In this document: piece by piece, positions 55,238 through 56,525 of the stretch | How the letters are laid out: every line of letters begins with the position of its first letter | How positions within the stretch are numbered: the stretch's first letter is position 1 | From: Oscillospiraceae bacterium | GTDB lineage: Bacteria > Bacillota > Clostridia > Oscillospirales > Oscillospiraceae | Direction of reading: 5' to 3' | Assembly (NCBI GenBank): GCA_910575815.1 | Contig: CAJTFN010000012.1 | Span: forward strand, 1 to 64,000 | DNA length: 64,000 nucleotides | Position numbers and translations under genes: made by a program | Notes under the pieces: generated by a model | Told to the model about the DNA's origin: nothing | Database searches by the model: none | The model's input: the letters and a program-made list of their open reading frames with translations, nothing else

Positions 55238-55266
55238 TTTCTATTTTCCCGTGGCCGTGCTATGCT
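55238..55266 (+). promoter_or_regulatory. promoter of the aro operon
   Basis: TTTCTA, 17 bp, TGC-TATGCT (extended -10). Predicted start about 55273, 27 bp before the leader peptide. Confidence 0.65.
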
Positions 55267-55299
55267 TGAACTATACAAGGAATGCAAGGGGAACCTGTT

Positions 55300-55407
55300 A
55301 TGACGAAGTCCGCTCGTACATTTGCATACAGCTATTACTACTTTAGCTTTACCGGGTTCGGTAAGGCTTTTCGTGGTTTGGCTGAATGCGCGTGTGAGGG
55401 CGTCTGA
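55300..55407 (+). CDS. Phe/Tyr-rich leader peptide
   Basis: 35 codons, ATG preceded by AAGGGG 8 bases upstream. The peptide reads MTKSARTFAYSYYYFSFTGF, then GKAF; 5 Phe and 4 Tyr lie within codons 8-24. This matches the regulatory leader peptides of aromatic amino-acid operons. It lies between the promoter and a terminator ahead of aroF. Ribosome stalling at the Tyr/Phe codons would sense low charged tRNA-Tyr or tRNA-Phe. Not a structural gene. Confidence 0.85.
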   Translation: MTKSARTFAYSYYYFSFTGFGKAFRGLAECACEGV

Positions 55408-55465
55408 TCTGGTATCAGGCCGTTTGTACGAAGCTACCCGCAGCCAGGCCGGCTGCGGGTTTTTT
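55346..55465 (+). terminator. attenuator: alternative hairpins and terminator
   Basis: Seen: stem GCTTTACCG/CGGTAAGGC (55346-55367), small hairpin CTGAT/ATCAG (55404-55418), and intrinsic terminator ACCCGCAGCC/GGCTGCGGGT (55436-55460) with TTTTTT. A competing antiterminator is possible: GGCTG...CGCGT (55380-55393) with ACCCGCAGCC (55436-55445), one mismatch and a 4-base bulge. GCTCGTACA (55313-55321) can also pair with TTTGTACGAAGC (55423-55434). Confidence 0.8.
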
Positions 55466-55499
55466 GTATTCCCCGCTATTTTTCAGGAGGATTTAAATT

Positions 55500-56525
55500 A
55501 TGATCGTGATTCTCAAGAACAACCCCAACCGGGACCAGCTGGAGAGCCTGATTCACTGGCTCCAGGAAAAGGGCGTCATCATTCATACCAGCATCGGCGA
55601 GGCCCAGACGATTTTGGGCCTGGTGGGGGATACCTCCAAGCTGGACATCGACCTCATTGCCGCCCTGGACATCGTGCAGGACGTGAAGCGGGTCCAGGAG
55701 CCCTATAAAAACGCCAACCGGAAGTTCCACCCGGAGGATACCGTCATCCCCGTGAGAGACACCCAAATCGGCGGCGGCACCCTGACCATCATGGCGGGGC
55801 CCTGCTCTGTGGAGAGCGAGGAACAGGTGGTGGCCATCGCCAAGGCCGTGAAGGCCAGCGGCGCCACCATGCTCCGGGGCGGCGCCTTCAAGCCCCGGAC
55901 CTCGCCCTACGCCTTCCAGGGCCTGGGCGCCACGGGCCTGGAGTATCTGAAGGTCGCCCGGGAGGAGACGGGGCTCCCCATTGTGACGGAGCTGATGGAC
56001 GTGACCCAGCTGGAGCTCTTCAAGGACGTGGACGTTATCCAGATCGGGGCCCGGAACATGCAGAATTTTGATCTCCTGAAAGCCGTGGGCCACCAGGACA
56101 AGCCCGTCATGATTAAGCGGGGCATGTCCGCCACCTACGAGGAGTGGCTGATGAGCGCTGAGTACGTCATGGCCAGCGGCAACGATAACGTGATTCTCTG
56201 CGAGCGGGGCATCCGCACCTTCGAGAGCTATACCCGGAACACGCTGGACGTGGCGGCCATCCCGGTTCTCCGGGCCTTGACCCATCTGCCCATTGTCATC
56301 GACCCCAGCCACGCCACGGGCAAATACTGGCTGGTGGAGCCTCTGGCCCGGGCCGCCGTGGCGGCGGGAACCGACGGGCTCCAGATCGAGGTGCACAACG
56401 ACCCCTCCCACGCCCTCTGCGACGGGCCCCAGTCCCTGAAACCGGAGGTCTTCGACCCCCTGGCGAGGAAGCTCATTCGGCTCCACGTGTTCATGCGGGG
56501 TTTGGACCAGGAGGGCCTGGATTAA
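55500..56525 (+). CDS. aroF: 3-deoxy-7-phosphoheptulonate (DAHP) synthase
   Basis: First committed step: phosphoenolpyruvate plus erythrose 4-phosphate. 341 residues, RBS CAGGAGG. The N-terminal ferredoxin-like regulatory domain (about 1-75, [20 protein letters not shown]) and barrel motifs [45 protein letters not shown] and [10 protein letters not shown] place it in type Ib, as in Thermotoga, where Tyr/Phe bind the N-terminal domain. It heads the aro operon behind the leader peptide. A hairpin (GGGAGAACC/GGTTCTCCC, 56543-56565) separates it from tyrA. Confidence 0.96.

Follow-up and report, generated by a model that had tools for sequence, protein, structure and literature searches.

The operon for phenylalanine and tyrosine synthesis of an Oscillospiraceae gut bacterium is very probably headed by a ribosome-mediated transcription attenuator of the trp/phe type, which would sense charged tRNA-Phe and tRNA-Tyr. 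This assignment combines sequence comparison across relatives with modelled RNA folding. The window, i.e. the whole stretch of DNA that was analyzed, comprises 64,000 nucleotides; features of the aro locus are given in Table 1.

Organization of the aro locus

The original prediction had described a 35-codon leader, led by a Shine-Dalgarno sequence and containing five Phe and four Tyr codons, in front of a terminator and an operon for exactly these two amino acids. The ORF, the terminator and the gene profiles all agreed with this description. Translation of the putative leader ORF gives MTKSARTFAYSYYYFSFTGFGKAFRGLAECACEGV. The ORF has its own ribosome-binding site, a good Shine-Dalgarno sequence, and in relatives' leaders purine-rich stretches likewise preceded the start codon. 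A predicted intrinsic terminator separates the leader from aroF, the next gene downstream, at a leader-to-aroF distance of 92 nt.

Table 1. Predicted features of the aro locus (positions in the window)
Feature	Position	Strand	Remarks
Upstream gene	54633-55178	+	zinc-dependent phospholipase C-like family (PF00882); same strand as leader
Candidate promoter	55238-55266	+	conserved block; -35-like TTTCTA (55238-55243), 17-nt gap, extended -10 TATGCT (55261-55266) with TG ahead
Shine-Dalgarno sequence of leader ORF	55286-55292	+	AAGGGGA, read from sequence
Leader peptide ORF	55300-55407	+	35 codons; 5 Phe, 4 Tyr, no Trp; stop 55405-55407
Segment 1 core	55329-55341	+	Tyr codons 10-14; partner 55373-55384; from leader fold and cross-locus permutation test
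Inner leader hairpin	55345-55368	+	AGCTTTACC-GGTAAGGCT, enclosed by 1:2 stem; 99.8% of cells paired, nucleotides almost invariant (50 distinct genus sequences)
Segment 2 (antiterminator 5′ arm)	55375-55384	+	GGTTTGGCTG; codons 26-29 (GLAE)
Intrinsic terminator (segments 3:4)	55436-55465	+	stem 55436-55460, then U run
Segment 3 (antiterminator 3′ arm)	55441-55450	+	CAGCCAGGCC; inner half of terminator 5′ arm plus terminator loop
aroF, DAHP synthase with ferredoxin-like domain	55500-56525	+	TIGR01361 396.8 bits, over cut-off; PF00793, PF18152
tyrA, prephenate dehydrogenase	56600-57436	+	PF02153, PF20463 over cut-off; NCBIfam prephenate dehydrogenase models all below cut-off
aroB, 3-dehydroquinate synthase	57452-58531	+	TIGR01357 over cut-off
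aroA, EPSP synthase	58532-59758	+	TIGR01356 280.6 bits, just under cut-off of 287.25
aroC, chorismate synthase	59724-60839	+	TIGR00033 over cut-off (profile search from 59742)
pheA, chorismate mutase / prephenate dehydratase	60826-61962	+	PF01817, PF00800 over cut-off
aroE-aroK-aroQ three-domain fusion	61966-63684	+	PF08501, PF01202, PF01220 in single ORF

The profile identities of the genes from aroF to aroE/K/Q indicate an operon with Phe and Tyr as its end products. Its last ORF fuses three shikimate steps, namely shikimate dehydrogenase (AroE), shikimate kinase (AroK) and type II dehydroquinase (AroQ). No trpE was detected in the host genome (a 96% complete assembly), while the same search gave a signal in 14 of 14 control genomes (over cut-off in five). 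This absence fits a leader with Phe and Tyr codons and without Trp.

The promoter that had been proposed ahead of the leader was recovered as a conserved block (TTTCTA-17-TATGCT) in 51 aligned sequences of the genus, one of them from the window, though a generic sigma-70 consensus scan found no promoter at this locus. Just 5′ of the -35/-10 elements, TTTG and CAGTTT blocks (55215-55250) were also kept across the genus; perhaps they represent an operator or UP element.

One reading takes the terminator as the end of the upstream gene, which lies on the same strand and finishes 258 nt upstream, and the Phe/Tyr-rich ORF as a coincidence. The conserved promoter between this gene and the leader argues against it, as does the retention of promoter, leader, terminator and their spacing in relatives, and we give it hardly any credence.

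The leader RNA is strongly structured: the fold of 55273-55470 had a z score of -7.1, and none of 200 shuffled sequences was equally stable. Such structure could also belong to a riboswitch-like RNA that binds a ligand or protein and senses an aromatic compound, the ORF being incidental. Region 55200-55500 matched no Rfam family at gathering score (Rfam 15), neither the T-box nor any other leader family such as the proteobacterial Phe leader. A T-box was rejected as an explanation of 55238-55500, since the sole match of the T-box covariance model (RF00230) within the window lay at 49171-49413. According to the original prediction, a T-box or protein-binding structure with a better fit to the region would have counted against an attenuator; none emerged from these searches. 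Furthermore, the conserved structure sits within an SD-led ORF, and its Phe/Tyr content persists where the RNA sequence is dissimilar. A riboswitch-like RNA is thus very unlikely here, despite the candidate aromatic-amino-acid riboswitch before Enterococcus faecium aroFBC-tyrA, compared with our locus by its published description only (PMC4448216).

Conservation of the leader among relatives

aroF was located in 80 of 99 relatives, at 91 places. Metagenome assemblies make up many of the genomes in the whole analysis. Upstream regions were examined for the 70 best-scoring of these 91 places, one near a contig end being excluded. A Phe/Tyr-rich leader preceded aroF in 66 of the 70 loci (52 of 53 within the genus, the window counted, and 14 of 17 within the order). 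Leaders were missing from L054, L067, L068 and, by the threshold used, L069. In a permissive scan, all 66 leaders were followed by a terminator between the leader stop and aroF (one assigned by hand). The loss of Phe/Tyr codons from relatives that keep the terminator had been named beforehand as the observation that would count against an attenuator; both features were kept together in these 66 loci.

For a strict test, a short ORF before aroF had to carry an SD sequence and at least six Phe/Tyr within 12 residues. It was passed by 61 of 70 related loci, whereas none of the 70 passed in any of three shuffles or on the reverse strand. Sixty of the 61 clear-SD leaders were accompanied by a terminator. 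In the named set, 50 or 52 of 80 loci had a leader, depending on the criterion, and 46 of the 52 had a terminator as well. These frequencies point to putative control codons for the operon's own amino acids beyond chance expectation. Among the named records, the host genus was grouped with Oscillibacter, and the leader of Oscillibacter valericigenes Sjm18-20 (L081) reads MSTFTFAAEYRYFSFTYYFGKAYFGLAENECV.

The leader peptide was closely alike in most of the 51 genus sequences. A small protein with a function of its own, or a peptide that arrests its nascent chain, could be the product of the ORF, the conserved AEYRYFSFTYFYGKAYFGLAE then acting as peptide. To separate peptide from RNA constraint, codon usage was compared in 38 of the 51 genus leaders, picked by a peptide motif. 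Paired codons were frozen including their silent positions (TTT ACC ... GGT AAG GCT identical in 38 of 38), and the hairpin that they form was 99.8% paired. In the aligned block, both TAC and TAT occurred at the Tyr codons in positions 5 and 10; the codon in the hairpin loop, which was left free in the motif, was Phe/Tyr in 25 leaders and another codon in 13. Frozen silent sites together with varying Tyr and loop codons suggest that the conserved peptide is probably for the most part a by-product of RNA pairing and Phe/Tyr codons. Distant leaders, moreover, have Phe/Tyr runs in common but not the peptide sequence, so that we regard a functional peptide as quite unlikely. Exact copies of the inner hairpin occurred at most once per genome and were present in 18 of 40 genomes searched.

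Mutually exclusive stems

The attenuator interpretation requires competing RNA stems. The terminator stem has 10 bp (eight of them G-C), a 5-nt loop and a T run after it. Across 50 distinct genus sequences, 99.6% of its positions were paired, and five of its 10 pairs showed compensatory changes on both sides. Upstream, segment 2 (GGUUUGGCUG) forms the 3′ part of a protector stem (1:2), the complete extent of which is about 55311-55402. Over its full length, GGUUUGGCUG can alternatively pair with segment 3 through 10 bp, giving the candidate antiterminator (2:3).

An antiterminator had been predicted earlier between 55380-55393 and 55436-55445. It exists, but these coordinates were off by about five bases: the strong pairing joins 55375-55384 to 55441-55450, both versions sharing a GGCTG/CAGCC core. 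Antiterminator and terminator had correctly been proposed as alternatives, whereas the 1:2 stem was missed.

The antiterminator was 97.4% paired in the 50 genus sequences, falling to 12-55% when slid, and the outer protector helices were 84% and 66% paired. Within the genus, covariation beyond shuffles was confined to the terminator: antiterminator changes were almost one-sided, and neither antiterminator nor protector covariation clearly exceeded column shuffles. We attribute this to too little divergence and therefore used a permutation test across loci. At distant loci, antiterminator letters change together: (i) in L057, TTTGTTTGGCTG is matched by CAGCTGAACAAA; (ii) in L058, TCTGCTGTGGA by TCCGCGGCAGA; and (iii) in L061, GTTTTGCCGC by GCGGTAAAAC.

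From 128 loci having leader and terminator, 82 non-redundant loci were retained after removal of similar ones. For each, the pairing energy with its own partner was compared to that with the partners of other loci, row and column effects being removed (double-centred). An earlier percentile form of this test left base composition uncorrected and was replaced. The advantage of the own partner amounted to -3.80 kcal/mol for the antiterminator (z = -12.9) and -8.75 kcal/mol for the protector (z = -18.1), neither being reached in 20000 permutations. A control region 5′ of the leader gave -0.26 kcal/mol (z = -1.1; 2845 of 20000 permutations). At the level of sequence, the data demonstrate the parts of the switch, show that these are conserved and show that the two alternative pairings have evolved together; the cross-locus comparison argues that the mutually exclusive 1:2, 2:3 and 3:4 stems are under selection.

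Because leader ORF and aroF lie 92 nt apart with aroF directly following, the leader peptide might instead act mainly on aroF translation, by reinitiation or by masking of the ribosome-binding site. Between leader and aroF, however, stands an intrinsic terminator whose stem shows compensatory changes and is followed by a U run, and the alternative 2:3 pairing covers the terminator arm and loop. Control of translation rather than termination is therefore extremely unlikely.

Folding with the ribosome at different positions

To model attenuation, leader RNA was folded with the ribosome at successive codons, the RNA ending at the terminator loop (i.e. with the polymerase just past the loop). For the window's own RNA, the 2:3 pairing had a probability of 0.00 without a ribosome. 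With the A site at codons 5-6 it was 0.63-0.66, and at codons 7-21 it reached 0.87-1.00. It then fell to 0.72 at codon 22, 0.48 at codon 23 and 0.08 at F24, and with the ribosome at the stop it was again 0.00. Displacing the assumed ribosome edge by 3 nt shifted this profile by one codon. In the model, A-site positions from about codon 7 to codon 22 thus favor the antiterminator, but ribosome-free RNA and a ribosome at the stop do not. Eight of the nine Phe/Tyr codons lie inside the antiterminator-competent stretch.

For the window, a looser measure, in which every pairing of the inner terminator arm with RNA 5′ of it counts, separates the states less sharply than the specific 2:3 pairing does (0.46 without ribosome, 0.58 at the stop and about 0.8 at Phe/Tyr codons). 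Averaged over the 82 loci, it gave 0.80 for a Phe/Tyr stall, 0.52 without ribosome and 0.31 at the stop. A Phe/Tyr stall exceeded the stop by 0.3 in 62 of 82 loci, and the ribosome-free state by 0.2 in just 42 of 82. Among the codons of the 82 loci whose stall keeps the terminator arm paired upstream, 34% were Phe or Tyr (684 of 2029), compared to 14% of the other codons (97 of 687). With the ribosome at the stop, upstream pairing of segment 3 was weakened by at least 4 kcal/mol in 73 of 82 loci, part of which is expected as less RNA is free there.

Full-length thermodynamic folding was discarded as a test of the switch: the finished terminator was more stable at every ribosome position, so that positions were not discriminated. 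Since the completed terminator always wins, the decision must be kinetic. The same holds for the trp attenuator of Escherichia coli. The dependence on ribosome position is a computed one. Along with the co-variation of the alternatives across loci, it bears out the earlier idea that a stall at the control codons would free the antiterminator and that a ribosome at the stop would block it.

The following mechanism would account for these patterns. Without a ribosome, segment 1 (the Tyr-codon stretch) would pair with segment 2, leaving segment 3 free to form the 3:4 terminator. Under a shortage of Phe-tRNA or Tyr-tRNA, the leading ribosome would stall with its A site on a Phe or Tyr codon among codons 8-20 and cover segment 1. 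Segment 2 could then capture segment 3 before segment 4 is made, resulting in read-through into aroF-tyrA-aroB-aroA-aroC-pheA-aroE/K/Q. With both tRNAs charged, the ribosome would run on to the stop and cover segment 2, and the terminator would form. We infer that the leader is translated, that ribosomes stall on it and that it regulates the operon in the cell.

Leaders and T-boxes in the Clostridia

For a survey of the class, 30 search matches were combined with 40 loci picked by hand from a score-ranked list to span families, a non-random set; after L229 (no start codon) was dropped from these 70, 69 loci remained. Leaders were found in 22 of 69 loci by the strict test (0, 0 and 1 in shuffles; 1 on the reverse strand) and in 30 or 33 by looser criteria, a few of the 33 being doubtful because of a weak SD. 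A terminator followed in 22 of 30. A leader was missing from roughly one half to two thirds of the set. In tests for single residues, Phe was enriched in 18 loci (shuffles 1, 1, 1) and Tyr in 11 (3, 0, 1); Leu showed no excess (10 vs. 7, 8 and 8), and Ala (4) and Glu (2) were slightly above shuffles.

All 36 leader-less class loci were searched for T-boxes 5′ of aroF, and nine had one at gathering score; none was found in the 16 of the 33 leader-bearing loci that were searched. An Rfam scan of 20 other loci with Phe/Tyr-rich ORFs returned as its only match a T-box on the opposite strand of L178. As leader and T-box were found 5′ of aroF in separate class loci, Clostridia appear to use either device at this gene; many sampled class loci carried neither.

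Other Clostridia displayed a second leader type 5′ of aroF (L168, L178, L191, L196, L215, L218, L220, L222, L224 and L127, the last being Clostridium chromiireducens). These leaders have 42-59 codons with Phe/Tyr runs, usually one Trp and a SWGYFYFSAGY-like motif. Antiterminator pairing was often weak in MKNIIGK...SWGYFYFSAGY-type leaders (L224 and L225; also L173 and L174), which may be built differently. Phe/Tyr-rich short ORFs before aroF were also seen in bins named Oligosphaeraceae, Lentisphaerae, Kiritimatiellae and Thermoguttaceae (L108, L116, L135, L151 and L152), possibly as a consequence of transfer or bin contamination.

The host genome had 15 T-box matches, nine of them over the cut-off. 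One of these elements had been assigned to ileS in the window. The existence of this T-box (49171-49413) is confirmed at 102.7 bits, and it has an Ile specifier (ATC) when read by eye, but other ORFs separate it from ileS (51037), namely an acyltransferase-like ORF (by eye) and one more; the T-box may therefore head a longer operon. Another T-box, with a plausible TAC specifier (by eye), precedes tyrS (L161), and a weaker one (75.7 bits, below the cut-off) lies 5′ of a cluster of another ORF and pheS (L162/L243). Hence, the charging of tRNA-Tyr appears to be monitored in two ways, through a T-box at tyrS and through a ribosome at the aro operon, and the ligases for tRNA-Phe and tRNA-Tyr seem to rely on sensors different from that of the aro operon.

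Relation to known attenuators

In the pheA and trp attenuators of E. coli and other enterobacteria, control codons lie in segment 1 of a four-segment RNA with a terminator before the first gene. The aro leader would share this logic, with four segments, control codons in segment 1 and a terminator ahead of the first gene. It differs in lacking an Rfam leader match, in its longer ORF (35 codons) with mixed Phe and Tyr codons, in having segments 1 and 2 inside the ORF, and in using the terminator loop as part of the antiterminator arm. Like a T-box (RF00230), it would sense tRNA charging, whereas the T-box is a tRNA-binding RNA that operates without translation.

The original prediction had set this E. 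coli-type logic, which our analysis supports, against Firmicutes as users of T-boxes or regulatory proteins. That contrast was too strong, since His, Leu and candidate aroF leader attenuators have been published. These include (i) the Leu-rich attenuator peptide of Staphylococcus aureus ilv-leu, with genetic evidence, a Firmicute leader-peptide attenuator like ours but for Leu, another operon and Bacilli (PMC5794164); (ii) computationally predicted His leaders in bacilli, Peptostreptococcaceae and Erysipelotrichales (PMC2965389, PMC9413887; mentioned in PMC4833913), which replace a T-box or repressor, some Eubacteriales included (17 genomes in PMC9413887), and which resemble the aro leader as leader peptides but carry His codons; and (iii) the uORFC-13-1 motif 5′ of aroF, a computational candidate with 24 representatives from Acholeplasma and environmental sequences only (Brewer et al. 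2021, PMC8632094).

Among the papers searched, uORFC-13-1 is the nearest published case that we found. Its ORF has at least one Phe codon, and control by translation speed was proposed for the motif; as in the aro leader a short ORF with Phe codon(s) and then an intrinsic terminator stand directly before aroF (PMC8632094). Compared by its description only, it differs from the Clostridia leaders with their mixed Phe/Tyr runs, resolved three-way switch and permutation support. A literature search with little coverage of subscription journals turned up no account of Phe/Tyr leaders from Clostridia. Leader-peptide attenuation is a known kind of control, and what looks new is its position in front of the aro operon in many Clostridia.

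Implications

We lean towards the view that Clostridia have long and widely controlled their shikimate pathway by Phe/Tyr leader attenuation, which swaps with T-boxes at aroF and coexists with the tyrS T-box in one genome. The aro leader matches no Rfam 15 family (window and 20 other loci searched), and together with the tyrS T-box it would provide a single genome with two likely means of sensing whether tRNA-Tyr is charged. A translation-coupled switch of the E. coli style would then head a core pathway in bacteria whose class is known more for T-boxes. If this is true, ribosomes in these Firmicutes must trail RNA polymerase at a distance short enough for them to decide termination. This contrasts with Bacillus subtilis, for which uncoupled transcription has been reported, a state that is perhaps rather common. 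With its need for a ribosome close behind the polymerase, a conserved attenuator would make the question of coupling testable in Clostridia.
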